Positions 5,533 through 60,372 of a stretch of DNA of 64,000 bases are shown here, piece after piece. A program made the position numbers and the translations under genes. Numbering within the stretch: the first letter of the stretch is position 1; the number at the start of each line of letters is the position of its first letter. The notes under the pieces are model-generated. The model was not told the DNA's origin, ran no database searches, and saw only the letters and a program-made list of their open reading frames with translations. The stretch comes from Thermophilibacter provencensis (GTDB lineage: Bacteria > Actinomycetota > Coriobacteriia > Coriobacteriales > Atopobiaceae): assembly GCF_900128445.1 (NCBI RefSeq), contig NZ_LT671417.1, positions 2,181,201-2,245,200 of the forward strand. Reading direction: 5' to 3'.

Positions 5533-6153
5533 TTACTCGTAGTGCCGCACGTCCTTCTCGAGGTAGCGGCGCCTCTCGACCGTGGGGCCCATGGCGTTGA
5601 CCGCGGCGTAGCGCGGGCACTCGCGGGCGTGGTCGTTGATGATGCCGCAGGCCTGCAGGTGCGAGTAGACCGTCGTGGGACCCAGGTACTTGAAGCCGCG
5701 ACGCTTGAGGTCAGCCGCCACGCGCGCCGAGAGGCCGTTGCTCACCGGAATCCACCCGTCGGCGTGCTTGTTGTAGAGGATCGTCTTGCCGTCCGAGAAG
5801 CCCCAGAGATAGGCGTCAAAGCTGCCGAACTCCTCACGAACCTGCTGGAAGCAGCGCGCGTTGTTGATGATAGCCTTAACCTTGCGGCGGGAGCGGATCA
5901 TCCCCGGCGTCTCCAGGATGCGCTCGACGTCCTCCGGCCCGAACGCCGCCACGGCATCGTAGTCGAAGCCCGCGAAGCACGCGCGGAGCACCTCGCGCTT
6001 GTGCGGCATCATGGTCCAGTTGAGCCCGCACTGCATGACCTCGAGCGAGAGGAACTCAAACTGCCCGCGGTCGTCGTGCAGGGGCACGCCCCACTCCTCG
6101 TCGTGGTAGCGCAGGCAGAGCTCGTCGGTGGTGCCCCAGTCGCAGTAGGACAT
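5533..6153 (-). CDS. tag: DNA-3-methyladenine glycosylase I
   Basis: 206 residues, the usual length for Tag, which removes 3-methyladenine from alkylated DNA. The N-terminus MSYCDWG and YHDEEWGVP give Cys4 and His17, two zinc ligands of the Escherichia coli enzyme; the NDHAREC segment near the C-terminus gives the other His and Cys. EVMQCGLNW holds the base-pocket region. It reads into the hairpin array on its 3' side. The C-terminal LEKDVRHYE carries a copy of the dispersed word. Confidence 0.93.
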   Translation of the reverse strand: MSYCDWGTTDELCLRYHDEEWGVPLHDDRGQFEFLSLEVMQCGLNWTMMPHKREVLRACFAGFDYDAVAAFGPEDVERILETPGMIRSRRKVKAIINNARCFQQVREEFGSFDAYLWGFSDGKTILYNKHADGWIPVSNGLSARVAADLKRRGFKYLGPTTVYSHLQACGIINDHARECPRYAAVNAMGPTVERRRYLEKDVRHYE

Positions 6154-10999: not shown

Positions 11000-12188
11000 A
11001 GCTCTGCCTCCTAAAGATGGCGCCGGCCACGGCGAGAAGGGCGAGCGCGCCCGCCACGCAGGCGGCGAGGCGCGCGGCAAACGGCGCGAGCGAGGTGTAG
11101 TAGTAGAGCGCGTAGAACGTGTCGCACACGAGCTTGGCCGGGTTCACCCAGCTCGTCCACGGCAGCGTGTGGGCGAGGTTGTCCGCGAGCTCCATCGCCG
11201 CAGTTCCGTAGAGGCCGGCAAAGAGCGAGAGCACGCAGGTCAGCGCCGTGAGGATACCCGAACGTGCGGAGATGCCGGCCGAGAGGGGCAGCGCCCCCAC
11301 GCACGCACCGAGCGCCGTGGCGAGCAGCGCGCAGACGGCAACGGCCACAAGCGCGAGCCCCTCTCGGCCGCCAAAGTCCACGCCCACCACGAGGCGCAGA
11401 AACGCGAAGGCCAACGTCAGCGCCACGGTCGAGACCGCCCATGCACCGAGCACGCAGCCGGCGAGCTGTCGCAGGCGCGAGGTGCCCGAGACCGCCCGGC
11501 GCGCCCCGAGCGCCGAAACGCCGGGCTGGGCCTGCGCCACGGCGAGCATGCCCGCCTGGGTGGCCATGAGCGCGCCCATGCCGAGAAGCGCGTAGTAGTA
11601 GCGCACGATCTCCTCCGGCCGGGCGTGCGTTATCTGCGTCTGCTCCACGTCAACCTGGGTGCCCAGGGCATCCGCCACCGCGGCGGGGTCTGCGAGCGCC
11701 GCGGAGTCGCGCTGCGCCACCTCCTCCAGAAGGGCCCGCGACTGCACGTAGGAGCTGGCGACGGTCTCCAGGATCGTGCGGTTGACCGCCGTCGCGCCGT
11801 CCGCGCTCGCGAGCGTGTAGGCCGAGCCCACCGTGAGCGCGGGCGTACCGTCGGGTGCGAGCTCAAAGTAGCCGTCGACCTCGCCGGCAGCGAGAAGGTC
11901 CGCAGCATCGGCGGCGGTCTCCACGTGCCGCAGATCGAGCAGCTGGTCCTCCCCCGGCTCCGCGAGGACGTCCACGACCTGGGCGAACGAGCCCGCGGGC
12001 GCGCCGTCCTTCTCGCCCGCCGGCGCCACGAGCGCCACCGGCACCGGATCCACCACGCCGTCCGTACGCATGCCGGAGAACATGAAGAGGAAGATGGCGG
12101 ACATGATGAGGGGAAACGCCAGCACCCACACGATCACCGCGGGCGTGCGCGCGAGGCTCTTGACGCTCACCAGAAACGAGGTTCCCAT
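10986..12188 (-). CDS. ABC-2 type permease, first subunit
   Basis: 400 residues with the same topology as the downstream permease: helix at 15-40, outside domain to about 200, then membrane helices (GALMATQAGMLAVAQ onward). Ending AGAIFRRQSYEHL. It starts 9 bases after the ATPase stop and overlaps the next permease, so the three form a tight unit. AGEKDGAPAG carries a copy of the dispersed word in the outside domain. Confidence 0.85.
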   Translation of the reverse strand: MGTSFLVSVKSLARTPAVIVWVLAFPLIMSAIFLFMFSGMRTDGVVDPVPVALVAPAGEKDGAPAGSFAQVVDVLAEPGEDQLLDLRHVETAADAADLLAAGEVDGYFELAPDGTPALTVGSAYTLASADGATAVNRTILETVASSYVQSRALLEEVAQRDSAALADPAAVADALGTQVDVEQTQITHARPEEIVRYYYALLGMGALMATQAGMLAVAQAQPGVSALGARRAVSGTSRLRQLAGCVLGAWAVSTVALTLAFAFLRLVVGVDFGGREGLALVAVAVCALLATALGACVGALPLSAGISARSGILTALTCVLSLFAGLYGTAAMELADNLAHTLPWTSWVNPAKLVCDTFYALYYYTSLAPFAARLAACVAGALALLAVAGAIFRRQSYEHL

Positions 12189-13276: not shown

Positions 13277-13442
13277 GCAGAAACGAAGATTGCTGGAAAG
13301 ATGCGATTTTGCATGCCGAGAAGGACGCACGATCGAAATTCCTTGGCTCAAGCGTCGCTTTTAAGCCGCACGCGGACAGTTTTTCTCGTCCGTGCGTTCT
13401 TTTAGCATGCAGCATCGAAGGTTGCCAGTAATCTTCGTTTCT
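13277..13442. repeat. Imperfect inverted repeat, ~165 bp
   Basis: Outer arms GCAGAAACGAAGATTGCTGG (13277-13296) and 13424-13442 match at all but one position. An inner pair, TGCATGC...GACGCACG (13310-13330), matches 13391-13413 and contains one copy of the dispersed word. The 306-base gap between the ABC operon and degV holds no gene; this element fills it. It could fold as one long hairpin, act as a terminator for degV, or be a miniature mobile element. Confidence 0.7.
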
Positions 13443-14814: not shown

Positions 14815-15264
14815 ATGTCCCAGACAGAAGACCACGTCACCGCCCGGCTCAACCAGCTCTACCTGGAGATCGAGGGGCTCTACCATGACTACGCAAAGCG
14901 TCACGGCCTCTCCGACTCCATGCTGTGGCTGCTCTACTCCCTCCAGCTGCACCGCGAGCAACCAACGCAGCGAAGGCTCTGCGACGAGTGGCACACCTCG
15001 CCGCAGACCATGAACTATGCCCTGAAGACCCTTGAGGGGAAGGGCTACGTCAGCCTCGAGCCGCTGCTCGGAGGTCGACATGACAAGGCGATCGTCATCA
15101 CGGAACGGGGGCGGACCCTCATCGATGACGCCATCGAACCGCTCATGCAGGGAGAGCGGCGGGCATTCCACGCCCTCGAGAAGGACGAGCAGAGCCAGCT
15201 GCTCTCGCTGACCGGCAAGCTCGTGACCGCCCTGCGCGACGCGCTGGAGCCCGGAGAGAGCTAG
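14815..15264 (+). CDS. MarR-family regulator
   Basis: 149 residues with a winged helix at about 35-115: SDSMLWLLYSLQLHREQPTQRRLCDEWHTSPQTMNYALKTLEGKGYVSLEP, then the wing GGRHDKAIVITERG. Helices at both ends form the dimer interface. The ATG at 14815 follows GAGGT. It is divergent from the PGPGW-degV pair and has repeated candidate operators upstream. A copy of the dispersed word gives LEKDEQSQLL. Confidence 0.85.
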   Translation: MSQTEDHVTARLNQLYLEIEGLYHDYAKRHGLSDSMLWLLYSLQLHREQPTQRRLCDEWHTSPQTMNYALKTLEGKGYVSLEPLLGGRHDKAIVITERGRTLIDDAIEPLMQGERRAFHALEKDEQSQLLSLTGKLVTALRDALEPGES

Positions 15265-15909: not shown

Positions 15910-16338
15910 CTAGCCAAAGAGCTCCAGGTACTCCGCGCAGGTCATGGCGCGGACCTTGGAGCGCTTGAACGCAGCTGTGTCGCGCGTGAGGATCACGTCC
16001 ACGTCGTTGAGCTCCGCACAGGCGCGAATGAGCCCGTCCTCAAAGTCCGGCTCCCCGCAACCGAGCGAGAGCTCGCACTCCTCCGCGCCCAGCGGCGCAA
16101 TCACGAGCAGTTCGCGCAACCACTCGATCGACCTTCTCGCCCACACCTCGTCGTACTGACGTTGAAGCACGTAATACGCGTCCTTGAGGGACCCCACGGC
16201 AACGATCCCCAGGTCTCCCCCGCCATTGCAGCGGCGCAGCACCTCGCAGGCCTCCGCAGACTGCGGCCGCTCCCTGCAGACCGCGTCGAGAAGAACGTTG
16301 GTGTCAAAAAGCAGCCTCCTGCTGTTGAAGTCACGCAT
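15910..16338 (-). CDS. PIN-domain RNase toxin (VapC-like)
   Basis: 142 residues. PIN-fold acidic residues: Asp in LLFDTNVLLDAV, Glu in QSAEACEVLRR, and Asp pairs in PDFEDGLIRACAELNDVDVILTRD. It should cut RNA as the toxin of a type II module. The ATG at 16338 overlaps the upstream antitoxin stop by 8 bases. DTNVLLDAV is encoded over a copy of the dispersed word. Confidence 0.85.
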   Translation of the reverse strand: MRDFNSRRLLFDTNVLLDAVCRERPQSAEACEVLRRCNGGGDLGIVAVGSLKDAYYVLQRQYDEVWARRSIEWLRELLVIAPLGAEECELSLGCGEPDFEDGLIRACAELNDVDVILTRDTAAFKRSKVRAMTCAEYLELFG

Positions 16339-16612
16339 AGCGGCTCGCAATCATGTCACGCATCTGCTCCTTGGTAAGGTTCACCAACCACGGCTCGGCC
16401 TCGGGAAGGCTCTCCCGGAACTCCATGAAACGTTCCCAGGCGCCGCGAGGCTCCTCCGCCTGCTCCTCAGTCGGCACCTCGCCCGTGCGCGCGATGTTCT
16501 CCCACACCACCTTGATCACCTCGGCGGGCGTGGACCCCGCCGCGCGGATGTAGGCGTCCGCGCGCTGACGGACCTTCTCGTCCACTCGCCCCGACACCAC
16601 TGCCGTTGCCAT
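16331..16612 (-). CDS. RelB/DinJ-like antitoxin
   Basis: 93 residues. MATAVVSGRVDEKVRQRADAYIRAAGSTPAEVIKVVWENIARTGEVP matches the ribbon-helix-helix start of RelB/DinJ antitoxins, followed by an acidic neutralising tail. Pairing of a RelB-like antitoxin with a PIN toxin is a mixed combination. AAGGAGG precedes the ATG at 16612 and decides the start over earlier methionines. A perfect palindrome lies just upstream. Confidence 0.8.
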   Translation of the reverse strand: MATAVVSGRVDEKVRQRADAYIRAAGSTPAEVIKVVWENIARTGEVPTEEQAEEPRGAWERFMEFRESLPEAEPWLVNLTKEQMRDMIASRYA

Positions 16613-16625
16613 GCGCGCCTCCTTC

Positions 16626-16639
16626 GTAGACGTGTCTAC
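16626..16639. promoter_or_regulatory. Operator palindrome before antitoxin gene
   Basis: GTAGAC GT GTCTAC, perfect 6-bp arms, lies 14 bases upstream of the antitoxin ATG and next to AAGGAGG. It suits autorepression by the ribbon-helix-helix antitoxin. Confidence 0.65.
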
Positions 16640-16699
16640 ATACAACATAACACGACAGCGCATGGGGTACCCTAGAGACAACCCCAGAGGAGGTGCCCC

Positions 16700-17107
16700 A
16701 TGAAGAAGCGTCTCATCAAGGCTACGCTCATCTACGGCGTGACCTGGCTCGCCTGTCTTGTCCTGTACTGGGGGTCCCTCGCGACGGGTGTGCTCGGCGG
16801 CGGTGGCATCATGGGTTACACGATCTTGTCGCTCTACATTGCCCTGCCGATAGCCGGCATCGTCTCAGCGTTTCTGATTGGCCGCATGACCGAGCTCCGC
16901 TGGCGGCGCCTGGCCGCACCGGTCGCTATCGACGCGCTCCATGCGCTCTTCATCGCAGCGACGTTTGGCCTCTCCAACGCCCTCGGTCTCACCAACATCG
17001 CGGCCGCCGACCTCTCCGCATTTGCATACGGCCTCGCTCCCGCGATGGTAGGTCTGGCAATCGGCTGGGTCACCGCGCGCCACCCCGCGACGACATCCAA
17101 GCTCTGA
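16700..17107 (+). CDS. Four-helix membrane protein, unknown
   Basis: 135 residues with four hydrophobic stretches: about 8-30 (TLIYGVTWLACLVLYWG), 38-62, 70-92 and 103-125. Positive residues at the start and in the 62-72 loop place both ends inside. No charged or catalytic motif is visible. Ribosome site AGAGGAGG. It is divergent from the toxin-antitoxin pair and followed by a motif-pair hairpin and a 48-bp inverted repeat. Confidence 0.7.
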   Translation: MKKRLIKATLIYGVTWLACLVLYWGSLATGVLGGGGIMGYTILSLYIALPIAGIVSAFLIGRMTELRWRRLAAPVAIDALHALFIAATFGLSNALGLTNIAAADLSAFAYGLAPAMVGLAIGWVTARHPATTSKL

Positions 17108-17172
17108 CGAACGTGTGAGCGCTCAACATTATCGACTGATTCGGCTTCATTTTCATACAGGCAAACGAGCGC

Positions 17173-17203
17173 TCCGTCCTTCTCGCCAACCGAGAAGGAC
17201 GGA
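17173..17203 (+). terminator. Hairpin made of two inverted dispersed words
   Basis: TCCGTCCTTCTCG (17173-17185) and CGAGAAGGACGGA (17191-17203) pair perfectly around CCAAC; a further GCGC/GCGC pair extends the stem. Both halves are full copies of the dispersed word. It lies 65 bases after the membrane gene. Inverted uptake-sequence pairs serve as terminators in Neisseria and Haemophilus. Confidence 0.7.
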
Positions 17204-17211
17204 AAGCGCGC

Positions 17212-17315
17212 TTGGGGACGGGTTATTTCTCTCAGAGCTTTTGGGACAGGCCCCGCCGGCTGTGTAACCGGCGGGGCCTGTCCCAAAAGCTCTGAGAGAA
17301 ATAACCCGTCCCCAA
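17212..17315. repeat. Perfect 48-bp inverted repeat
   Basis: 17212-17259 and 17268-17315 are exact complements around the loop CTGTGTAA. Each arm holds two palindromic-element words: GGGGACGGGTT outside and TTTTGGGACAGGCCCC inside. The outer end CCCGTCCCCAAATGC is repeated once more at 17322-17336, next to the prfC stop. The stem would be exceptionally stable in RNA or single-stranded DNA. Confidence 0.85.
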
Positions 17316-17335
17316 ATGCCGCCCGTCCCCAAATG

Positions 17336-18949
17336 CTAGAACGTGACGTTGCCGAACTCGGAGAGGCGCAGGTCCGGGTTGTGCTCGATCGCCCAGTTGA
17401 GGTTCCACGGGCTCGTGAAGAGAAGCAGCCTGCCGCCGCGCATGTCCTCCACGCGCAGGGTCTCGCGCGTGAGGTTGAGCCTGGCCACGTCGACCTCGCC
17501 GTCCTTCTCGTCAATCCAGCGGATGAGGCCGTAGGGCAAGGGCGAGCGGCGCACCTCGACGTGGTACTCGCTCTTGAGGCGCTGCTCCAGGACCTCGAAC
17601 TGCAGCACGCCCACCACGCCCACGATGACGCGCTCCATGCCGGCGCCGAACTCGCGGAAGATCTGGATGGCGCCCTCCTGGGCGAGCTCCTCCATGCCCT
17701 TCACGAACTGCTTGCGCTTGAGGGTGTCCACCTGCTCGATGCGCGCAAAGTGCTCCGGCGCGAAGGTGGGGATGCCTGCAAACTGCACGCGGCGGCCCAC
17801 CTTGCAGAGCGTGTCGCCGATCGAGAAGATCCCGGGGTCGAAGAGGCCCACGATGTCGCCGGCGCTCGCCTCGTCCACCGTGGCGCGGTCGTCAGCCATC
17901 ATCGCCGTGCCCGTGGCCAGCTTGATCTTGCGGTCGCCCTGCACGTGGAAGGCGTCCATGCCGCGCACGAAGCGCCCCGAGCAGATACGCAGGAAGGCGA
18001 TGCGGTCGCGGTGGTTCTTGTCCATGTTGGCCTGGATCTTGAAGACGAAGCCCGAGAAGTCCGGGTCCGTGGCCTCCACGGGCTCGCCCGTGAGCGCATC
18101 CGTGTGCGCGCCGGGAGCCGGCGAGAGGCGTAGGAAATCGCGCAGGAACGGCTCCACGCCAAAGTTGGTGAGCGCCGAGCCAAAGAAGACCGGCGTGAGC
18201 TTGCCCGTGCGCACGGCCTCGAGGTCGAACTCGTGGTCCGCGCCGTCCAGAAGCTCGATGTCGTCCATGAGGGCGCGGTGGTTCTCCTCGCCGATGAGCT
18301 CGTCGAGGGCGGCGTCGCCAAGCTCCGCCTCCACCTCGGCCACGCGCTTGGTGGCGTTGGCGCGGCCGTCGCCCTCGAAGGCGAGCACGCGGCGGCTCGC
18401 GCGGTCGAAGACGCCGCGGAACGTCCGCCCGTTGCCGATGGGCCAGTTCATGGGGTAGGTCCCGATACCCAGGACGCTCTCGATCTCCTCCATGAGGTCG
18501 AAGGGGTCGCGCGTCTCGTGGTCGAGCTTGTTCACGAAGGTGAAGATGGGGATGCCGCGCAGCGCGCACACCTTGAAGAGCTTGACGGTCTGGGCCTCCA
18601 CGCCCTTGGCGCCGTCGATCACCATGACCGCGGAGTCCGCTGCCATGAGCGTGCGATAGGTGTCCTCGGAGAAGTCCTGGTGACCCGGGGTGTCGAGGAT
18701 GTTCACGCAGTGGCCCTCGTAGGTGAACTGCAGGACGGACGAGGTCACGGAGATGCCGCGCTGCTTCTCGATGTCCATCCAGTCGGAGACCGCGTGCTTG
18801 GCGCTGGCCTTGCCCTTGACCGAGCCCGCGCTCTGGATGGTGCCGGTGTAGAGCAGCAGCTTCTCCGTGAGCGTGGTCTTGCCCGCGTCCGGGTGCGAGA
18901 TGATGGCAAAGGTGCGGCGAGAAGAGATCTCCTCCTCAAGGCTTGGCAT
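17336..18949 (-). CDS. prfC: Peptide chain release factor 3
   Basis: 537 residues, full length. RF3 is a GTPase that recycles RF1/RF2 from the ribosome. G domain: G1 ISHPDAGKTTLTEKLLLY, G2/G3 near RGISVTSSVLQF and DTPGHQDFSEDTYRTL, G4 FVNKLDHE. Domains II and III follow (RDRIAFLRICSGRFVRGM, LQFEVLEQRLKSEY). The F-S-E-D-T-Y after G3 separates RF3 from EF-G. DEKDGEVDV near the end carries the dispersed word. Confidence 0.95.
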   Translation of the reverse strand: MPSLEEEISSRRTFAIISHPDAGKTTLTEKLLLYTGTIQSAGSVKGKASAKHAVSDWMDIEKQRGISVTSSVLQFTYEGHCVNILDTPGHQDFSEDTYRTLMAADSAVMVIDGAKGVEAQTVKLFKVCALRGIPIFTFVNKLDHETRDPFDLMEEIESVLGIGTYPMNWPIGNGRTFRGVFDRASRRVLAFEGDGRANATKRVAEVEAELGDAALDELIGEENHRALMDDIELLDGADHEFDLEAVRTGKLTPVFFGSALTNFGVEPFLRDFLRLSPAPGAHTDALTGEPVEATDPDFSGFVFKIQANMDKNHRDRIAFLRICSGRFVRGMDAFHVQGDRKIKLATGTAMMADDRATVDEASAGDIVGLFDPGIFSIGDTLCKVGRRVQFAGIPTFAPEHFARIEQVDTLKRKQFVKGMEELAQEGAIQIFREFGAGMERVIVGVVGVLQFEVLEQRLKSEYHVEVRRSPLPYGLIRWIDEKDGEVDVARLNLTRETLRVEDMRGGRLLLFTSPWNLNWAIEHNPDLRLSEFGNVTF

Positions 18950-19202: not shown

Positions 19203-20225
19203 TCATCGGGTACATCGGGTAGGTGCGCCATCCTCCATCGCAGCGCGCTCCCTCCATGCACGAGGGGGCATGCCCGTAAAGTCAGAGAAGGCGTGGCAGA
19301 AGGCCGAGGGGCTCGGGTAGCCGAGAAGGACGGCGACCTCGGAGACGCTACGATCCCCGTCCCCGAGGAGTCGGCACGCGCGCTCCATCCGCAGCTGGCG
19401 CGCATATGCGCCCACGCTCTGTCCCATCTCGCGCCTGAACGCGTCGCAGAGCCGCGACCGGCTCACGTAGAGCCTGCGCGCGAGCGCGTCGACGGAAGGT
19501 GGTGCGTCACCCTCCTCGACCGCAGCCGACAGGAGCCTCCTCGCGTGGCTCACCAGCGCACCCTCGTCTTGACCGAAGCCCTTCTCGTCCGCCGCCAGAG
19601 ACGCCACGAGGGAGGTGACGGTCGAGAGAAGCCCGAGCGACCCACCGGGGCCGAGCGGAGGACTCGCGGGTAAGCTGTCGAGCGCATGACGAATCGCCCC
19701 CTTGGACTCGGGACCCCAGGCGCCGTCAAACGCCGAGAAGAGCCCGCCGAACTCCCCCGGATAGCTACGATCCAGCTCGTCGAAGAAGTCGGGCAGACAG
19801 ATGATGGAGCGGGAGCGGTAGACGTGGTCGGCGAGCAGGCGACTCGAGAGCGAGCGGGGGCCGTGCTCAACGAACGTGGCAACCTCGTCATGCGGACGGC
19901 GCGCGCCGCCCCCGGCGCCGACGAGCCTGATCGGCAGGCCACAGTCCCGTGAGCACGCCACCGCGTCGTCCCCCATCGTGCAGGCGCAGGCATACGACCC
20001 GAGCGACCCCTCGAAGAGCGGCATGTCCTCAAGCGGGGTGACGTCGTGGCAGAGCACGAGGCAGTGCGGCATAGGCGCGCAAAGCCACATCGAGCCTGTC
20101 GCCACGGAGCCCCGCGCCTCCCCCACCCAGATGCCGCCCCGGCGCTCGAGGAGCACGCCGAGCTGCTCGACCTGCGGCTCGAAGAGCGCGACGAGCTCGC
20201 GGGGAATGTCGCCCATGCCCGTCAT
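19203..20225 (-). CDS. AraC-family transcriptional regulator
   Basis: 340 residues. The C-terminal ~100 residues hold two helix-turn-helix units (VDALARRLYVSRSRLCDAFRREMGQSVGAYARQLRMERACRLL, then VSEVAVLLGYPSPSAFCHAFSDFTGMPPRAWR). The N-terminal ~230 residues have a Cys pair (CACTMGD, CSRDCGLP) and no recognised ligand fold. It is divergent from two ABC half-transporters, as YbtA is from YbtPQ in yersiniabactin loci. GTTAG boxes lie in the gap. The start could also be the ATG at 20216. Confidence 0.85.
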   Translation of the reverse strand: MTGMGDIPRELVALFEPQVEQLGVLLERRGGIWVGEARGSVATGSMWLCAPMPHCLVLCHDVTPLEDMPLFEGSLGSYACACTMGDDAVACSRDCGLPIRLVGAGGGARRPHDEVATFVEHGPRSLSSRLLADHVYRSRSIICLPDFFDELDRSYPGEFGGLFSAFDGAWGPESKGAIRHALDSLPASPPLGPGGSLGLLSTVTSLVASLAADEKGFGQDEGALVSHARRLLSAAVEEGDAPPSVDALARRLYVSRSRLCDAFRREMGQSVGAYARQLRMERACRLLGDGDRSVSEVAVLLGYPSPSAFCHAFSDFTGMPPRAWRERAAMEDGAPTRCTR

Positions 20226-34166: not shown

Positions 34167-35048
34167 ATGGAGCGGTTCACCGTCGAGCAAGACGGCTTCT
34201 TCGGATTCCTCCACTTGCCGGAGCGGCACGTCGAAGCGTACTCCGGCAAGGCGCTCATCGTGCTCGGCGGCAGCGAGGGCAACGAGAACATCCCGCGCAA
34301 CCTCGGTGCGCGTTTCGCACGGGAGGGCATCGCCGCGCTCGGCCTGTGCTACTGGAACGTGCCGGGACTCCCCGATGAGCTCATCGAGGTGTCGATCGAG
34401 CCAATCGAGCGTGCCGTCGCCTATCTCCGGCAGCGTGGCTTTGACCGCGTGGGGATCTACGGCATCTCCAAGGGCGGCGAGCTGGCGCTTCTCGCCGCCT
34501 CGCTCATGCCTCAGATCACCTGCGTCGTCGCCATCTCCCCGCTCGCCTGCGCCATGCCGGGCATCACCGGCAACAAAAGCCTTGCCGGCAAGGGTCTGAG
34601 CGACCGCTCGAGCTGGACCTGGCGCGGCGAGCCCGTGCCCTGCGCGCGGGGCGGCGGGAGGCTCCCCTACCTCGGCATCATCCGCCGCATCGTCACCGAG
34701 CGCCAGCTCGACATGCGCTTCGTCTACGAGCGGATCGTCGAGCGCGCGCCCAAGGAGGCCTGGATTGCCGTGGAGCGCATCAACGGGCCCGTCCTTCTCG
34801 CCAGCCCCTCGCATGACGCCATGTGGCCGAGCGACGAGGCCTGTCGGATCGTCGAGCAGCGCCTCGCCAAGCACGCCCATCCCTTCGAGATCACGCGACG
34901 CTCCTACGAGTACGCGAGCCACATCCTCGTGCCCATGGAGACACCCTCGCTCAAGCTCTTCCGCGTCGAGCGCGCCCACCCCGAAGCATGCCGGCAAAGC
35001 CGCGAGGACGCCTTCACCCAGACGCTCGCGTTTCTCGCCCGGTGGTAA
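34167..35048 (+). CDS. Acyl-CoA thioesterase/BAAT-like hydrolase
   Basis: 293 residues; alpha/beta hydrolase of the BAAT C-terminal type. Nucleophile elbow YGISKGGELALL (Ser in GISKG), acid Asp in SPSHDAMWPSDEA, and His in YEYASHILVP. These hydrolyse or transfer acyl groups; here the N-terminal thioesterase domain is missing, leaving the hydrolase alone. The ATG at 34167 follows GTGGAG. PVLLASPS carries the dispersed word. It follows the P-ATPase by 48 bases. Confidence 0.8.
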   Translation: MERFTVEQDGFFGFLHLPERHVEAYSGKALIVLGGSEGNENIPRNLGARFAREGIAALGLCYWNVPGLPDELIEVSIEPIERAVAYLRQRGFDRVGIYGISKGGELALLAASLMPQITCVVAISPLACAMPGITGNKSLAGKGLSDRSSWTWRGEPVPCARGGGRLPYLGIIRRIVTERQLDMRFVYERIVERAPKEAWIAVERINGPVLLASPSHDAMWPSDEACRIVEQRLAKHAHPFEITRRSYEYASHILVPMETPSLKLFRVERAHPEACRQSREDAFTQTLAFLARW

Positions 35049-35125: not shown

Positions 35126-37033
35126 TTACCGAACGCGCGGCTTCCATCCCAGTAGAAGCGCGGAGTTGACGATGACGAGCACCGACCCCGCATTGTGCAC
35201 GAGCGCCCCCACCACGGGGTTCAGGACGCCCGAGATGGCAAGTGCGATCGCGATGAAGTTGAGGGTCATCGAGAACGTCAGGTTGATCCTGATGGTCGTC
35301 ATCATGCGGCGCGCGAGGCGCAGGAGGTGCGGTAGCTCGGCGATGTCATCGTTCACGAGTGCGATGTCCGCCGCGTCGACGGCGATATCGCTGCCGATGC
35401 CGCCCATGGCGATGCCCACGAGCGCGCGCTTGAGCGCAGGCGCGTCGTTGACGCCGTCGCCGACCATACAAACTCCCTTGCCCGCGCGCTCCGAGTCATC
35501 GATGAAGGAGAGCTTGTCCTCGGGCAGGCAGGCGGCCTTGTAGGTGGTGATGCCGAGTTCGGCAGCCACGTGGGCGGCAGCCGCCTCGTGGTCCCCCGTG
35601 AGGAGCACCGGCTCCACGCCCGTCTCCCGCACTGCCGAAAGCGTAGCGGTGGCGTTCTCGCGCACGCGGTCGGCGAGCGCAATGAACCCCGCTGCCGCGT
35701 CGCCCCAGCCGAGATAGGTAATCGTTGCCCCCTCGGCGCGCGCAGCGTCCACGCGCCTCCCCAGCGCGTCCGGTATAGCCAGACCGTGCTCCGCCAGCAG
35801 CGCGGCGCTGCCGGCGTACACCGTGCGCCCGCCCACCTCGGCCACCACGCCGCGACCGGGCACCATGGCAAATGACGTCGGGTCCTTCGGCGCCGCTCCG
35901 GCGTGCTCCGTGGCCGCGGCCACGATGGCGCGCCCGAGGGGGTGCTCGGATCGCTTCTCGGCCGCGCCAGCAACCGCGAGCAACGCGTCCTCGCTCACGT
36001 CCTTCTCGCCCGCGCACACGGAAACCACCTGCGGCTCCCCCGTGGTGAGCGTGCCCGTCTTGTCAAAACACACGCGCCTGACCTGCGCCAGGCGCTCGAG
36101 CGCGTCCCCCTCGCGCACCAGAAAGCCGTGCCTGGTGGCGTTGCCGATCGCCGCCATGATGGCTGTGGGCGTGGCGAGCACGAGCGCGCACGGGCAGAAG
36201 ACGACGAGGATGGTGACCGAGCGGATTATCTCGCCCGTCACGAGATAGGTGAGAACTGCTGCCACAAGGGCGATGACGACGATCCACACCGCCCAGCGGT
36301 CGGCGAGGTTCACGATCTTGGCCTTGCCGGCGTCGGCCGACTGCACGAGGCGAATCATCCGCCGGATGGACGAGTCCTCGCCCACGCGTGTCGCGGCCAT
36401 GTCGAACGAGCCGAACTGGTTGACCGTGCCGGACGACACCTCATCCCCCGGGCCCTTGTCCACCGGCAGGCTCTCGCCGGTCATGACCGCCTGGTTGACC
36501 GAGGTCTGACCGGAGACGATGACGCCGTCTACGGGCACGGCCTCCCCGGGCAGCACGCGCAGGATGTCGCCCACCTGAACGGCTTCCGCCGCGATGGTCT
36601 CCTCCGCCACGGGGCGCGGCTCGGCCCCCTCGGCGGACGCGCGGGCGATGCGCCGTGCCGTGCGCGGCGTCAGATGGACGAGCCGTTCGATGCCGGCACG
36701 GGCGCGCGCCACGGTGAGCTCCTCGAGCAGGCCGCCGAGCTGCATGATGAAGGCGACCTCGCCCGCAGCGAAGTCCTCGCCGATGAAGACGCTCGCGATG
36801 AGGGCGAGCGAGACGAGCACGTCGGCCGTGACGTCGAACTCGGTCACGAGGCCGATGACGGCCTCTAGGATGATGGGCACGCCGCACAGGATGATGGCCA
36901 CCCACGCGATCGAGAACGGGAACGGCTCGACGCCCGCGAGCGAGAGCACGAGTGCCACGCCCGAGACGGCGAGAAAGGCAATGTCGCGCCTGGTTCCGCC
37001 CCACGCCAGCAGTTTCTCCAGGCCTTCGATCAT
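35126..37033 (-). CDS. Heavy-metal P1B-type ATPase (Cd/Zn/Cu type)
   Basis: 635 residues with no N-terminal HMA domain. Actuator VMTGESLPVD near 187, metal motif VVFCPCALVLATP near 280, phosphorylation site CFDKTGTLTTGEP near 325, HP motif EHPLGRAIV, hinge VGDGVNDAPALKRA near 530. The CPC motif allows Zn/Cd/Pb or Cu(I). A CsoR-type palindrome lies 40 bases upstream, next to a CsoR-like gene, so metal-dependent induction is likely. CAGEKDVSED carries the dispersed word. Confidence 0.92.
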   Translation of the reverse strand: MIEGLEKLLAWGGTRRDIAFLAVSGVALVLSLAGVEPFPFSIAWVAIILCGVPIILEAVIGLVTEFDVTADVLVSLALIASVFIGEDFAAGEVAFIMQLGGLLEELTVARARAGIERLVHLTPRTARRIARASAEGAEPRPVAEETIAAEAVQVGDILRVLPGEAVPVDGVIVSGQTSVNQAVMTGESLPVDKGPGDEVSSGTVNQFGSFDMAATRVGEDSSIRRMIRLVQSADAGKAKIVNLADRWAVWIVVIALVAAVLTYLVTGEIIRSVTILVVFCPCALVLATPTAIMAAIGNATRHGFLVREGDALERLAQVRRVCFDKTGTLTTGEPQVVSVCAGEKDVSEDALLAVAGAAEKRSEHPLGRAIVAAATEHAGAAPKDPTSFAMVPGRGVVAEVGGRTVYAGSAALLAEHGLAIPDALGRRVDAARAEGATITYLGWGDAAAGFIALADRVRENATATLSAVRETGVEPVLLTGDHEAAAAHVAAELGITTYKAACLPEDKLSFIDDSERAGKGVCMVGDGVNDAPALKRALVGIAMGGIGSDIAVDAADIALVNDDIAELPHLLRLARRMMTTIRINLTFSMTLNFIAIALAISGVLNPVVGALVHNAGSVLVIVNSALLLGWKPRVR

Positions 37034-37072
37034 GAGCGTCCCCGTCCTTCTCGCCGGCGCGTTTTGATACCT

Positions 37073-37511: not shown

Positions 37512-37874
37512 TTGGGTCACCCGGTAGCCGGCGGACTCCACGGCTGCGGCCAGCGCCGCAGGGTCGATCGGGTCCTTGGAGAGCACGCGCACGCGGTCGG
37601 GCAGGCTCGCACGCGCCCACACGCCGCCGATGCCGTCGAGCGCGGTCTCCACGGCCGCGAGGCAGTGCTCGCAGCGCATTCCCTCGACGGTGAGGTCGGC
37701 CGAGTAGGGGTAGTGCGCCTCGTTGGTGTCGGCAACCGTCGGGCGCGCGACGTGGGACTCTCCCCCGCCGGAGCACCCGCAGCCGCAGCCGCCCTGACGG
37801 AGCGTCCGCAGGTAGCGACGGGCGGCGAGAAGGACGACCGCCACCACGGCCAGGACGATAACGACGTTGATCAT
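37506..37874 (-). CDS. Membrane-anchored heavy-metal-associated protein
   Basis: 122 residues. One N-terminal helix (INVVIVLAVVAVVLLAARRYL), a Cys/Gly loop GGCGCGCSGGGES, then an HMA domain with TVEGMRCEHCLAAVETALDG (metal site CxxC in MRCEHC) to the C-terminus. It likely binds Cu(I) or Zn at the membrane and hands it to a pump; the loop cysteines may also bind metal. It precedes the CsoR-like gene and P-ATPase on the same strand, so one metal-response group is likely. Confidence 0.85.
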   Translation of the reverse strand: MINVVIVLAVVAVVLLAARRYLRTLRQGGCGCGCSGGGESHVARPTVADTNEAHYPYSADLTVEGMRCEHCLAAVETALDGIGGVWARASLPDRVRVLSKDPIDPAALAAAVESAGYRVTQG

Positions 37875-43643: not shown

Positions 43644-44075
43644 CTACAGGGCGGCAGAGATCTTGTCGATGAGCTCGGCATACTCGGCGTCGGAGAGCGT
43701 CACGCGGCCCGGGTTCATCGCGAACACGTCGCCGAACTCGAAGGGGTCGTCCGCGTACTTGGGCACGAGGTGGAAGTGCAGGTGATGCATCGTGTCTCCA
43801 TACGCCCCGAAGTTGATCTTGTCGGGAGAGAAGGCCCGATGCAGCGCGGAGGCCACGTGGCGGACGTCGGCCATGAAGGCGGCCGACTCCTCCTCGGTGA
43901 GGTCGCTGATGTCGTCGACGTGGCGCCTGGAGGCCACGATGCACCGGCCGCGGTGGCTCTGCTCCCTGAAGAGTATCAGCTGGCTTGCCGGCAGCTCGCG
44001 TATGGGGATGCCGAAGGCGCCCACCAGCTCGTCCTTCTCGCCAATCATGCAGTATGCGCAGCTTTCGTCCCTCAT
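43644..44075 (-). CDS. HIT-family nucleotide hydrolase
   Basis: 143 residues, HIT fold. The histidine triad is HHLHFHLVPKY near 105; the N-terminal CAYCMIGEKDEL holds a Cys pair that may bind zinc with downstream His (QSHRGRCIVASRRHVDDI), as in Hint proteins. They hydrolyse aminoacyl- or phosphoramidate nucleotides. GGGGAG precedes the ATG at 44075. IGEKDEL carries the dispersed word. Confidence 0.9.
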   Translation of the reverse strand: MRDESCAYCMIGEKDELVGAFGIPIRELPASQLILFREQSHRGRCIVASRRHVDDISDLTEEESAAFMADVRHVASALHRAFSPDKINFGAYGDTMHHLHFHLVPKYADDPFEFGDVFAMNPGRVTLSDAEYAELIDKISAAL

Positions 44076-44312: not shown

Positions 44313-45107
44313 TCAGTCGTGCCCGGCCCGCCCCCGGTGCCGCCCTCCGTGATGGCTGGAAGAGGACCCCGCGCCCTCCAGCAGCTCCGCGAGCTCGCGC
44401 ACGCTCATGTCCGCCGCATCCTCGGCGGTGAGGTCGGAGCCCGCGTCCACGAGCTCGCGCCAGACGCGCCACTTCCCCACGCCGAGCCCCTCCTCGTGCG
44501 CGGCATGGTGCTCCTCCTCGCTCGCGTGCGAGCAGCTCACCTCGGCGGCGGAGGCGCCCAGGCACCGATGGCTCGCATCCTCGATGGCGCCGTACTGGGC
44601 ATCGTCCCCGCAGCTCACGGTCACGCTCACCGCCGAGTCCGCCGTGAGGTAGCCGGCGGCCTCCATGCCCTCGACGAGCGCGCGCACGGCATCCTCGTAC
44701 CCCATCCACGTCACGTCCGTGGCGGAGAGCACGTCCTCCCCGTCCTCGTTGAGGCCCCGCGCGCTGACCACGTGGTCGAAGCGGTTGAGGCCGAGCTCGA
44801 TCGAGGGGTTCACGTCGATGTCCACGTACGCGGTCGGGGTGGCGACGGCAAGCCCGAGAAGGCCCGCGCCCACCGCGGCGACCACGAGGCAGGCGGCGAG
44901 CAGCAGTCGCGCGCGGCGCCGGGCGCGCGGGCGAGAAGGACGCGACCCCGTCGCGGCGACGCTCGCGGCGGGCGCGGGCGCGTCGGCGCGCTCCCCCTCG
45001 CCGTGGCGGGCCTCGATCGCGGCAAGCGCGCGGGCCTTGACGCCCTCGGGGGCATGGACGGACGCGAACGCCTCGCGCACGCGCCTCTCGGCGGCACCCT
45101 CCCTCAT
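44313..45107 (-). CDS. RsgI-like anti-sigma factor
   Basis: 264 residues. N-terminal ~70 cytosolic residues, one helix (LLLAACLVVAAVGAGLLGLAV), then the extracytoplasmic RsgI-type domain TPTAYVDIDVNPSIELGLNRFDHVVSARGLNEDGEDVL, and a charged tail rich in His and Gly. RsgI proteins hold sigma-I-like factors until an outside signal arrives. The ATG overlaps the sigma gene stop by 4 bases, so the two are coupled. Confidence 0.85.
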   Translation of the reverse strand: MREGAAERRVREAFASVHAPEGVKARALAAIEARHGEGERADAPAPAASVAATGSRPSRPRARRRARLLLAACLVVAAVGAGLLGLAVATPTAYVDIDVNPSIELGLNRFDHVVSARGLNEDGEDVLSATDVTWMGYEDAVRALVEGMEAAGYLTADSAVSVTVSCGDDAQYGAIEDASHRCLGASAAEVSCSHASEEEHHAAHEEGLGVGKWRVWRELVDAGSDLTAEDAADMSVRELAELLEGAGSSSSHHGGRHRGRAGHD

Positions 45108-50815: not shown

Positions 50816-53074
50816 ATGGCAGAGGAGGAGCGGACGGGACGGCTCGGGAGGCTCTTCGCCGCGCTCGTGAACGTGGGGGACGAAGACGGGGGCGAGGCGT
50901 CGCCCGAAGGGGCGGGCCCCGCCGGCCAGGATGCCGAGAAGGACCCGGCGGGTGGCAACACCACCGTCCTCGACCTCGAGGGGCTCTCGCGCTCCCTCGC
51001 CTCGTCCCCCGACCCCATGGCCCTTCTCGCGGGGCTCGTCGTCGACGTCCGCGCGCGGGTCGGGGCGACCGGGGCGCCCGAGCTCCCGGGCGAGGCGCCC
51101 AAGCTGCTGCCGAGCCCGCTCGAGGTGCATCTCGCCACGAGGCTCGTGGAGGCGGGCCTCCTGGAGGCAGACGTCGAGCTTCCGGGCGTCCGCGTGGTAC
51201 GCCCGCGCACCTCGGGCCTCTTCTACCTGCGCATCGAGGAGGAGCGGGTCAGCTACCTCGCCAAGCTCCGCGTCCTGCAGGTCGAGTCCGCGCTCAACTC
51301 CGTCCTTCTCGCGGCCCATGCCCTCGCGAACCCCAACGACGCCCCGCTCGATGCGATCGTGCGGGCCGAGCAGCGCGTCACGAGGTCCGTCGCCGGCCAG
51401 GCGCGCGAGGTCGCGGAGCGACTCGAGGGGCCCGTGCGAGGGGAGTGGGACGTGCGCTACGCGCTCGCCTACGGCATCGAGGCCTTCCGCCTCCCCCACC
51501 GCCTCACGGCGCGCTTCCGCGTGAACGCGCGGGCGGGGGTCGCCGCCTTCGAGCTCGACCTCGTCCCGCCGGAGGCGTGGCCGCGCTCGGCCTTCGTCGA
51601 CGGCCTCGGCGTGGTCCCCGCGACCGAGCAGATGCGCCGGCGCGCCGCCGGCACCTACAACGCCCGGCTCGCGGCGCTCGTGGCGGGCTACGCCCTGGCC
51701 GCCGCCCCCGAGCTCGGCGAGGTCTGGGTGGCGGGCGTCATCGACACCGCGCGCGACCACGCCTGCCTCTACTCCGCCCGCATCTCGCGGGAGGCCCTGG
51801 AGGCCTTCGACCGAGGGGGCTCGTTCGACCCCGTCGCGCTGCTGCGCTCCTGCGGGGCGGCCATCTCCCCCGACGAGACGGGCGGCCTCGCCCCGGTCCG
51901 CCAGGGCTTCTCCCTCGACGACGAGACGCTCTGCCCGCGCGAGCGCTACGACGCCCCCGAGCTCTCCGAGGCGACGCTCGCCGGCGAGCTCGGCGACGCG
52001 CTCGGCTGCTGGCGCGTGAGCGACCTCGGGATCGACGAGGGCGCCCGGCGCAGGCACGTCGCCGACGAGCTCGCGCGCCACCTGACGGGCTCCACCGAGA
52101 AGAACGTCCAGGCGATCCTCGCCGCGGCGCGCGAGGACGGGCACCCCGACGTCATCGAGGCGGCGCGGCGCTGCGTCTCCGGCCTCATCGACGGAGAGCT
52201 GGAGGACGACGCCCTCGCCATCGGCGAGTCCTTCGTGGAGGGCGGCGACCTCCAGCGCGGCTGCGCCCGGGCGCGCGACGCGCTGCTCTCGCACGACCTC
52301 GAGGCCGCGGGGAAGTACGCGACGGACGCGCTCCTGCCCATCGACGGGCTCGGGTCCTTCGACGGGTCGGACGGGCTCGTCTGGCGCGGCTTTGGGTCCT
52401 ATGCCGACCGCGCGCTCTACAACCGGCTGATCGCGGCCCCCGGAGAGCGCTGCGCCCTCGTCCCCGCCGCCTACCTCGAGGCCCACACCATCGCCGCCGC
52501 CTCCGCCCTCGCCCGGGGCCGCGCCGAGGAGGCGCTCGAACACGCCCGGCGCGCCGCGGAGGTGGCCCCGCTCTCCTCGCAGGCGAGCCTCAACCTGGCG
52601 CAGTGCCTCGAGGCGACGGGCGACCCCGAGGCCGCCGGGCGCGAGCTCTGCCGCCTGCTCTCGCTCGCGCATGACCCGGAGTCGATCGGCCTCGGCTACC
52701 TGGGCATGGCGCAGCTCCAGTGGCAGGGCGGCCACGTGCTCACCGCTCAGGCCTGCTACCAGCGCGCGACCCGCCACCTCGGCGCGCCCGCGCTCGTGGC
52801 GCGGCTCGCCATGGCGGCCCTCATCGGCCAGGCTGGGGCCTCGGCGGGAGGCGAGCTCTCGCCCGACCAGGCGGACTCACTCCTGGAGGCGGCCGGGATC
52901 CCGCTCGCCCCGACCGAGACCGTGAGCGCAGCCTTCCTCGAGGCCACGCGCGCCGCCACGGACGCCGGCATCTTCCGCGTGGCGCGCGACCTCCTGCGAA
53001 AGCTCTGCATGATCTCGCGCGACGACGTCTACTTCGGCATGCTCCGCTCCGTCGAGGACGAGCCGGACCGCTGA
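50816..53074 (+). CDS. TPR-containing protein of unknown function
   Basis: 752 residues. No signal peptide. The first ~350 residues carry no known fold; residues about 430-480 include EKNVQAILAAAREDG, and TPR-like helices lie at 540-640 (AAASALARGRAEEALEHARRAAEVAPLSSQASLNLAQCLEATGD). The C-terminus ends DDVYFGMLRSVEDEPDR. Two in-frame copies of the dispersed word (VLLAAHAL, TEKNVQA) and a third near the start (AEKDPAGG). The HAD gene starts on its stop codon. Confidence 0.65.
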   Translation: MAEEERTGRLGRLFAALVNVGDEDGGEASPEGAGPAGQDAEKDPAGGNTTVLDLEGLSRSLASSPDPMALLAGLVVDVRARVGATGAPELPGEAPKLLPSPLEVHLATRLVEAGLLEADVELPGVRVVRPRTSGLFYLRIEEERVSYLAKLRVLQVESALNSVLLAAHALANPNDAPLDAIVRAEQRVTRSVAGQAREVAERLEGPVRGEWDVRYALAYGIEAFRLPHRLTARFRVNARAGVAAFELDLVPPEAWPRSAFVDGLGVVPATEQMRRRAAGTYNARLAALVAGYALAAAPELGEVWVAGVIDTARDHACLYSARISREALEAFDRGGSFDPVALLRSCGAAISPDETGGLAPVRQGFSLDDETLCPRERYDAPELSEATLAGELGDALGCWRVSDLGIDEGARRRHVADELARHLTGSTEKNVQAILAAAREDGHPDVIEAARRCVSGLIDGELEDDALAIGESFVEGGDLQRGCARARDALLSHDLEAAGKYATDALLPIDGLGSFDGSDGLVWRGFGSYADRALYNRLIAAPGERCALVPAAYLEAHTIAAASALARGRAEEALEHARRAAEVAPLSSQASLNLAQCLEATGDPEAAGRELCRLLSLAHDPESIGLGYLGMAQLQWQGGHVLTAQACYQRATRHLGAPALVARLAMAALIGQAGASAGGELSPDQADSLLEAAGIPLAPTETVSAAFLEATRAATDAGIFRVARDLLRKLCMISRDDVYFGMLRSVEDEPDR

Positions 53075-53736
53075 TGGCCGCGCCCTCGCTCCTCCCGCCG
53101 TCCTTCTCGGCGGGCATCTTCGACTTCGACGGGACGCTCGCGGAGACCTGGCACCTCTGGCGGCGCGTCGACGAGATCTTCTTCTCCACGCGCGGGCTGC
53201 CCTTCGACGAGGATGCCTCCGCCACGCTCGCCACGCTCGGGTTTTCCGCCGGGGCCCGCTGGTGCGTCGAGCGCTACCGCCTGCGCGACGAGGTGTCCGA
53301 CATCGTGGACGAGTGGAACCGCCTAGGTGCGGCGCTCTACGAGGAGGAGGTCCGCCTGCGCCCGGGCGCCGAGGCCTACCTGCGCGCGCTCCGGGAGGCG
53401 GGCGTACCGCTGGCCCTTGCCACCACAAACGACCCGCACGTGCTGGGCGCCATGCGGCACGTGGACGTCTACGGCCTCTTCGACGAGGTGGTCTGCGGGC
53501 GCGAGGTCGCGCGCGGGAAGGACCACCCCGACATCTACCTCGAGGCGTCCCGCCGCCTGGGCGCGGCGCCGGGCGCGTGCTGCGTCTTCGAGGACATACT
53601 GCCCGGCACGCTCTCGGCCGCCCGCGCCGGCATGACGACGGTGGCCGTGCGCTGCGAGGACCCGCGCCAGCCCGCCCGCGAGCTGCGTCGCGCGGCCGAC
53701 CTCTGGATCGAGGGCTGGGAGGGGCTCGCCGACTGA
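53074..53736 (+). CDS. HAD hydrolase
   Basis: 220 residues. Motif I GIFDFDGTLAETWHLW near 14-29, a helical cap, motif II ATTN in LALATTNDPHVLG, Lys in VARGKDHPDIYLEASRRLG and motif IV VFEDILPGTLSAARAGM. This arrangement is beta-phosphoglucomutase/phosphatase-like. The ATG shares a base with the TPR stop (TGATG), so translation is coupled. Substrate unknown. Confidence 0.88.
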   Translation: MAAPSLLPPSFSAGIFDFDGTLAETWHLWRRVDEIFFSTRGLPFDEDASATLATLGFSAGARWCVERYRLRDEVSDIVDEWNRLGAALYEEEVRLRPGAEAYLRALREAGVPLALATTNDPHVLGAMRHVDVYGLFDEVVCGREVARGKDHPDIYLEASRRLGAAPGACCVFEDILPGTLSAARAGMTTVAVRCEDPRQPARELRRAADLWIEGWEGLAD

Positions 53737-59040: not shown

Positions 59041-60372
59041 CTACCGGCGACGCAGGCGCGCCACGAAGTGGGTGTCCGAGCCCGGCTGGTCGGTGCGGCG
59101 GGCGTCGAGCAGCTCGAACCGCCCGCCCGTGGGGCAGGAGAGAAGCGCCTCCACGACGCGCTCGTCCTCCTCGGCGAGGACCGAGCAGGTCGAGTAGACG
59201 ACGAGCCCGCCCGGCGCCACGCGCGCCGACGCGGCGCGCAGGATGTCCGCCTGGAGCGCGGCGAGGCCGGGGAGCGCCTCCTCGCGAAGCGACCACGCGA
59301 TCTCCGGATGGCGCGCGAGCGTGCCCGACCCCGAGCACGGGGCATCAACGAACACAAGGTCGAAGCTGCCGAGAAGGTCGTCGGGCAGGCCCTCGCCCGC
59401 GAGGGCGCGCCCGTCGGCCACGACGCAGCGGACGTGCTCGGAGATCCCGGCCGCCGCCATGCGGCGCCCGGCGAGCTCGGACTTGGAGGCGTCAACCTCC
59501 ACGGAGACGATCTCGCAGGGGCCGCCCGCGGAGACGGAGGCCCCCTCGATCAGCACGGTCTTGGTGCCCCTGCCCTGGCCGACCTCGAGCACGCGCGAGC
59601 CGGGCTCGGGCGAGCAGGCGAGCGCGACCTCCTGGGCCGCGAGGTCGCACGGCAGCACGTCGACGCGCTCCACGAGTCCGGAGGCGGCGAGCCGGGCGGG
59701 GGCGCCGAGCGTGAACGACCCGGCCAGCGGCCCCTCCTCGGGCGCGCAGCCGGCGGCCTCGAGCAGGCGGCGGGCCTCGTCGTCCTTCCAGCGCGCCCGG
59801 TTTGCGGCGACGGCGGGGGCGGCGGGGGCGAGTGCCGTCACGGCCCAGTCGGCGGCGCGCCCGTTTCCGAGCGAGGCGAGCGCCCGCGCGCAGAGCCACT
59901 CGGGAAGGGCGCCGACGCGGGCGAGGTCGCGGGCGTCAAAGGCCCCGGCCGCGACGCGCTCCCGCGCTCGGGCGAGCGCGGGGACGTCCTTCTCGGCGAC
60001 GCGACGCAGCACGGCGTTGGCGAGCCCGGCGGCACGCGGGGACACGCCGCGCACGAGCTCGACGCCCTGGCTCACGCAGACGTCGTCGCGCGTGCCGAGG
60101 TAGAGGAGCTCGAAGGCGGCGAGGCGCAGAGCGTCGCGAACCCGCGGCTCGAGGCGCGCGCCCCGGCGGAGGTGGGCGTCGATGACGCGGTCCAGCTCCC
60201 CTTCCGCGGCAACGGTCCCGAGCACGAGGCGCGTGGCCTGGGCGCGCTCGCGCTCCGAAAGGGCCGAGAGCTCATCGGATGCGCGCAGCAGCTCGCGGGC
60301 GCGGGCGTCGCGGCGGCGACGCTCCGAGACGAGCGAGAGCGCGCTGCGCCGGGCTGCCGTCGCGCGCGCCAC
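59041..60372 (-). CDS. rsmB: 16S rRNA m5C967 methyltransferase
   Basis: 443 residues. N-terminal NusB-like domain (LLRASDELSALSERERAQATRLVLGT), then the Rossmann SAM domain: VLEVGQGRGTKTVLI, VSVEVDASKSELAGRR, catalytic Cys in VFVDAPCSGSGTLARHPEI and second Cys in VVYSTCSVLAEEDERV. It methylates C967 of 16S rRNA. The GTG start directly follows the fmt stop (TAGGTG), the usual def-fmt-rsmB order. Confidence 0.93.
   Translation of the reverse strand: MARATAARRSALSLVSERRRRDARARELLRASDELSALSERERAQATRLVLGTVAAEGELDRVIDAHLRRGARLEPRVRDALRLAAFELLYLGTRDDVCVSQGVELVRGVSPRAAGLANAVLRRVAEKDVPALARARERVAAGAFDARDLARVGALPEWLCARALASLGNGRAADWAVTALAPAAPAVAANRARWKDDEARRLLEAAGCAPEEGPLAGSFTLGAPARLAASGLVERVDVLPCDLAAQEVALACSPEPGSRVLEVGQGRGTKTVLIEGASVSAGGPCEIVSVEVDASKSELAGRRMAAAGISEHVRCVVADGRALAGEGLPDDLLGSFDLVFVDAPCSGSGTLARHPEIAWSLREEALPGLAALQADILRAASARVAPGGLVVYSTCSVLAEEDERVVEALLSCPTGGRFELLDARRTDQPGSDTHFVARLRRR

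Follow-up and report, generated by a model that had tools for sequence, protein, structure and literature searches.

What brings two copies of one short word face to face at positions 17173-17203 of the 64-kb stretch analysed here (the window), and what is the word itself? The structure is a perfect 13-bp stem in which TCCGTCCTTCTCG (17173-17185) pairs with CGAGAAGGACGGA (17191-17203) around a 5-nt loop, CCAAC (17186-17190), just as the initial annotation had described it. The 11-mer CGTCCTTCTCG occurs in both arms: the first copy lies at 17175-17185 on the plus strand, where it overlaps GTCCTTCTCGCC (17176-17187), and the second opposes it at 17191-17201 on the minus strand. The position claimed for the hairpin, just downstream of a gene, also holds: it starts 65 nt past the stop codon of an ORF at 16700-17107 (+), which encodes 135 aa, resembles a small membrane protein and has no Pfam match. 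On the other side the 3' end of prfC (17336-18949, minus strand; peptide chain release factor 3, RF3_C, E = 2.8e-44) lies 132 nt beyond the end of the hairpin. With a plus-strand ORF on one side and minus-strand prfC on the other, the hairpin sits between convergent genes. Upstream of the ORF, a RelB-like antitoxin and a PIN-domain protein are adjacent at 15910-16612 (minus strand).

The hairpin had been called terminator-like, a description that fits its stem only. Folded as RNA, the segment 17165-17212 reaches -30.7 kcal/mol (z = -6.3), and none of 200 shuffles was equally stable. However, of the features of an intrinsic terminator only the GC-rich stem is present: no T-tract follows the stem on either strand, and the hairpin is therefore not a canonical terminator; nor is it among the calls of a terminator scan of 16600-17700. 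A known RNA family was rejected as well, an Rfam search of 16000-18500 having given ten matches, all below gathering scores. Eight of the ten fall on a long perfect inverted repeat, a second and unrelated structure of 47 bp at 17213-17314 (fold -106 kcal/mol), which recurs after prfC in locus L099 and, as a variant, in L090.

The 47-bp repeat adjoins a decayed copy of a 130-bp palindromic element, which occupies 17099-17212 (+) and is recognised by homology, by profile and by alignment; its left terminal inverted repeat has diverged and the right one is lost. The window copy matches an intact copy from a genus mate at 77% identity over about 104 nt (query 1-105; E = 6.5e-16), and a profile search recovers it in its own genome (L083) at E = 1e-16. 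When intact, the element is 130 bp long and has 24-bp terminal inverted repeats (consensus AAACTCTGACTTTTGCACGAGC...), with the word pair as its inner hairpin; it thus has what is expected of a palindromic repeat element, namely several copies, terminal inverted repeats and a near-constant length. In the window the stop codon of the 16700-17107 ORF falls within the left arm, and the right arm ends where the 47-bp inverted repeat begins. Among 25 genus-mate prfC loci with downstream sequence, three (L086, L088 and L091) carry the 130-bp palindrome just after prfC, and L104 holds a partial one. Across the genus the element is matched at E <= 0.001 in 22 of 31 genomes and over at least 100 of its 130 bases in 9 of 31, the remaining genomes matching the hairpin or one arm and the raw match counts including self-palindromic hits. 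Inspection by eye gave no clear target duplications at the element copies.

We aligned 18 near-full copies (121-130 nt, several per genome, shorter matches being excluded) together with the window relic. In this alignment 90% of cells pair and 18 of 38 pairs are changed on both sides, as high a value being found in none of 500 shuffles; the structure tested was drawn from one of the aligned sequences. Within the word stem, all compensatory changes (20 cells) fall in the seven outer pairs, and the six TTCTCG pairs have none. Given this covariation and the homology across copies, the facing pair is best understood as a trait inherited with the element. The hairpin forms the inner stem of a decayed 130-bp element – an ordinary repeat relic – and the initial view, that two dispersed words had met at a gene end, is not supported. 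The element is like MITE and REP-like repeats in its 130-bp length, 24-bp terminal inverted repeats and inner hairpin, and in being multicopy in some species; it is unlike them in that its inner stem bears the word of the host, the core of which is free of compensatory changes.

The word extends far beyond the element. The window contains 18 copies of CGTCCTTCTCG against 0.16 expected: besides the facing pair, exact copies lie on the plus strand at 5550-5560, 12005-12015, 17500-17510 (within prfC), 34790-34800, 35998-36008, 37043-37053, 44030-44040, 51301-51311, 53099-53109 and 59985-59995, and on the minus strand at 13317-13327, 15177-15187, 19322-19332, 37826-37836, 44932-44942 and 60489-60499. 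In the whole genome the 11-mer is present in 416 copies (strands 209/207; reversed control 11). A refined word, GTYCTTCTCGCC, is present in 489 copies in the 2.63-Mb genome (G000; strands 238/251), with two copies of the reversed control. The refined word takes the form GT[C/T]CTTCTCGCC, also written GT[C/T]CTTCTCG[C]C, with TTCTCG as its core, and is about 15-fold above an order-5 Markov model in an 844-kb sample (32% of the genome) made up of the window and 39 spaced 20-kb stretches. Intergenic information around TTCTCG begins four bases ahead of the core and ends two bases past it. For work on pairs and density we used a 10-mer form, GTYCTTCTCG, of which the sample holds 378. Other abundant dispersed repeats in the same 844 kb are TGACAAAGGTGACAGG (24 copies) and AAAAGTGACTGTCCC (20 copies), and L020 contains, at about 5942-6000, a local tandem cluster with a spacing of about 16 nt, made up of three exact 12-mers plus a broken copy.

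Intergenic DNA and gene edges hold 75 of the 166 refined-word copies in the 844-kb sample, where length alone would predict 27.7, and the 91 genic copies compare with a mean of 26.4 over 30 synonymous shuffles, the underlying gene calls being home-made. The supposition that the word is a by-product of codon usage, arising from frames that read GEKD or GEKN or else VLLA, draws what strength it has from the GEKD/N frame, where 42 words stand against 25 expected and ordinary coding therefore accounts for part of the count. Yet the VLLA frame, which requires the codon CTT, has 35 words against 0.97 expected, and codon usage leaves the intergenic excess unaccounted for; the synonymous-shuffle test rules out codon bias as sole cause, and we regard this explanation as barely credible. 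The earlier placing of the word at the level of DNA is supported by its spread over both strands, by the intergenic excess and by a genic excess beyond synonymous-codon expectation. Within gaps, the density of 10-mers is 1.60 per kb between convergent genes, 1.05 between tandem and 0.57 between divergent genes; in tandem gaps, 36 of 62 10-mers lie within the 40% that adjoins the upstream stop. Word density also increases with the GC content of a stretch (rho = 0.60), so that composition accounts for part of the word's spread.

Another reading takes the word as nothing more than the trace left by a family of mobile repeats, for instance that of the 130-bp element. The element does bear two words, and nine of the 31 genus genomes hold matches of at least 100 of 130 bases, but the genome studied has one recognisable long copy of the element against 489 words. 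Moreover, 57 of the 166 copies have a 12-mer in their flanks in common with a distant copy, a count that ten random draws placed at 32-53: word flanks resemble one another hardly more than those of random sites do. We therefore consider such an origin very unlikely. Comparison of G000 with G084, over few sites, shows word sites to be only weakly better conserved than controls (10-mer, 15/23 versus 57/129; 12-mer, 3/6 versus 11/31).

The initial annotation had also set as a test whether further inverted pairs are present in the genome and lie after stop codons, and had held that paired copies are tolerated or favoured at gene ends. The hairpin proves to be the single facing pair of exact 11-mers (gap 2-30 nt) in the genome, but the 10-mer GTYCTTCTCG forms 6 facing and 12 back-to-back pairs (gap 0-30 nt), so further inverted pairs exist in this looser form. 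Their placement is mixed: 9 of 10 back-to-back pairs are intergenic, five of the ten between convergent genes (two of the 12, being without a locus, were left out), whereas the six facing pairs divide equally, three intergenic and three within genes. Facing pairs recur in all 26 genus genomes tested (26 of 31 known, G396-G400 being left out), with a total of 242 against about 100 expected under uniform placement; because that expectation, built from the 10-mer/12-mer ratio of our own sample, ignores intergenic clustering, the true excess is smaller. Within 40 nt, the 844-kb sample contains 3 facing, 4 back-to-back and 8 same-direction pairs: inverted pairs are thus no commoner than same-direction ones, and words cluster in this genome without inversion itself being preferred. 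In G259 and G015 there is, in addition, a 44-46-nt class of facing pairs with mutually similar spacers (TCCGCAGGTCAGAG-like), which may represent a further small repeat bounded by words.

These counts also bear on the proposal that hairpin and word pairs serve as terminators or as stabilisers of RNA 3' ends, the word having spread as a terminator part. The very stable stem, the position of the hairpin between convergent genes and the intergenic location of nearly all back-to-back pairs agree with it. It is nevertheless distinctly unlikely: the hairpin has no T-tract, 91 of 166 words and half of the facing pairs are inside genes, and the pairs within 40 nt are few beside the 378 10-mers of the sample.

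The word has a restricted range within the class. In a class-wide survey of 396 genomes, sampled evenly from a larger set, 25 of the 26 genomes of the genus, its own included, carry 227-855 copies; the exception, G170, has 40 (control 2) and carries ComEC. The three genomes of a sister genus (g8) have 291, 305 and 484 copies. Counts from tens to about 140 occur in several more genera of the family and in g44, which belongs to a second family, and in most of the class surveyed the word is near background. The genus is probably Thermophilibacter in the sense of GTDB; according to NCBI taxonomy, Thermophilibacter belongs to the Atopobiaceae (Coriobacteriia, Actinomycetota). A strict hairpin pattern, scanned over the contig collection, returned 24 stretches, 18 of them titled Olsenella, Thermophilibacter, Atopobium or Atopobiaceae and partly non-independent, some coming from one genome and several having, as judged by eye, a common flanking gene; the other six come from Planctomycetota (2), Sanguibacter, Arthrobacter and two proteobacterial assemblies. 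The genomes with the strict pattern include Olsenella sp. An188 and An285, which identical coordinates equate with the genus mates G015 and G259.

Samples of 80-100 kb from twelve other genomes showed prominent TTCTCG words in G199, G060 and G194 and weaker ones in G056 and G255, and no comparable word was prominent in the samples of G086, G126, G170, G024, G030, G241 and G214. Across the 100 kb of samples L166-L170 of G241, a different string, AGTAGCGCTGGA, recurs 14 times (0.01 expected). The word of G060, which belongs to genus g2, is GGGTTTCTCGGC, a sister word that keeps the TTCTCG core: the two g2 genomes contain 183 and 172 copies of it but only 3 and 1 of GTYCTTCTCGCC, whereas the genome studied here has 2 copies of GGGTTTCTCGGC. 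Elsewhere in the class GGGTTTCTCGGC reaches 153 copies in G225 and 54 in G248, with 20 or fewer in others; G225, which has the g2 word although most surveyed genera are without it, belongs to another family of the order. In the g2 sample, 16 of 22 GGGTTTCTCGGC copies are intergenic or at gene edges against 3.1 expected, and six are genic against 0.5. GTYCTTCTCGCC and GGGTTTCTCGGC are thus lineage dialects around a conserved core.

A further alternative holds that the word is an intracellular site – of the Chi-like or FtsK/KOPS-like kind, or one bound by a nucleoid or segregation protein – unrelated to uptake. Such sites are likewise short, dispersed and lineage-specific, and the poverty in words of some low-GC stretches (none in L036, treated below; rho as given above) would be compatible with them, as would the strand lean of the 12-mer, which runs 24/10 over the contig's first quarter and reverses to 10/20 over its second. 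Polar sites, however, need a strand polarity, and overall there is none of the Chi/KOPS type: the 11-mer is evenly split between strands, and by a sign test of 2000 random-sign runs on the 844-kb sample, taken without a located origin and terminus, random signs attain the observed strand excursion in 1993 runs for the 10-mer and 1168 for the 12-mer. The intergenic excess, displaced toward the stop-codon end of tandem gaps, and the occurrence in another genus of a sister word that shares the core also stand against an intracellular site, which we consider unlikely while giving it some weight.

In its genomic features the word bears the signature of uptake sequences that come in dialects, showing most of the hallmarks examined. 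The 2016 review that describes such tags names the Pasteurellaceae and Neisseriaceae as families that evolved them, in hundreds to several thousands of copies (PMC5031613), and the copy number found here is at the low end of that range. As the account of DUS dialects in PMC3630211 has it, the genomes of Neisseriaceae carry a word of 10-12 nt in coding and intergenic DNA, with dialects around a short fixed core and with inverted pairs; the present word is alike in length, placement and dialects, and inverted pairs exist here too, though same-direction pairs are as common in the sample. It is unlike DUS in that its core is TTCTCG and not CTG, in that its actinobacterial host is without detectable type IV pilin signatures, and in being a candidate tag. 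With the USS of the Pasteurellaceae it has in common dispersal, a non-palindromic form, no orientation bias, a non-coding excess and a minority of copies as inverted repeats, uptake sequences being described in the portion of PMC1939737 used here as without palindromy or orientation bias, in non-coding excess and with only about 10% present as inverted repeats. Sequence and lineage differ, however, and uptake preference is established for USS whereas for our word it is predicted.

The hairpin, as the inner stem of the element, bears two facing copies of a word that we consider a probable uptake-sequence-like tag for the recognition of self DNA. The word is the unusual find, a candidate tag in Actinomycetota that has dialects, belongs to the DNA level and is restricted by lineage; it is most simply read as a putative self signal of the uptake type. 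For this word we infer a receptor, uptake and natural transformation. A receptor on the cell surface, which may sit on a Tad/Flp pilus or act with ComEA, would preferentially bind extracellular DNA that bears the word; tagged DNA so bound would then pass through ComEC, and its recombination into the genome would enrich the word genome-wide. Within the element, the outer stem changes by compensation and the TTCTCG core has no such changes.

Parts of a suitable machinery are present in the genome. A comEA gene (SLBB, helix-hairpin-helix) overlaps comEC in L201:12916-15895, and a Tad-like locus in L243 combines a T2SSE ATPase and a T2SSF protein with a weak Flp1-like match that stays below cut-off. 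Natural transformation in Micrococcus luteus, also an actinobacterium, relies on comEA, comEC and Tad/Flp pili, and this species has, according to the portion of PMC6370729 consulted, no comG cluster; our genome is like it in holding comEA-comEC and a Tad-like locus, and differs in having a candidate tag, no uptake sequence being named for M. luteus in that portion. The machinery does not track the word: ComEC is present in 65 of 65 genomes tested and the T2SSE ATPase in 53 of 53, with or without it, so that ComEC was rejected as a correlate. The type IV pilin signature PF07963 was likewise rejected: it occurs in 10 of 65 genomes, and the nine g1, three g8 and two g2 genomes tested are all without it, so that no ComP-like receptor is visible in these. 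A search of openly licensed literature found no report of uptake sequences in Coriobacteriia, and no data on uptake or transformation in these bacteria.

More tentative, and in our judgement a little short of an even chance, is the broader proposition that Coriobacteriia have a third, independently evolved tag system for the uptake of self DNA, which, as far as our searches reach, would be the first known in a single-membrane phylum. Such a system would combine genus dialects around TTCTCG with a receptor other than ComP, linked to a Tad/Flp pilus and to ComEA/ComEC, and its facing pairs would be carried inside palindromic repeats. If true, a system of dialect tags in Actinomycetota would be a case of convergence among bacteria with a single membrane, and commensals of the Olsenella group would be expected to undergo natural transformation; it would also offer a clean phylogenetic setting for finding a new receptor.

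A minor observation concerns one 20-kb stretch of the sample, L036 (G000:C3:1625001-1645000), which contains no 10-mer at all. Uptake tags are reportedly scarce in surface-antigen genes, as far as the portion of PMC5031613 drawn on here goes; by eye, L036 holds very large surface-like proteins together with transposase-looking genes.
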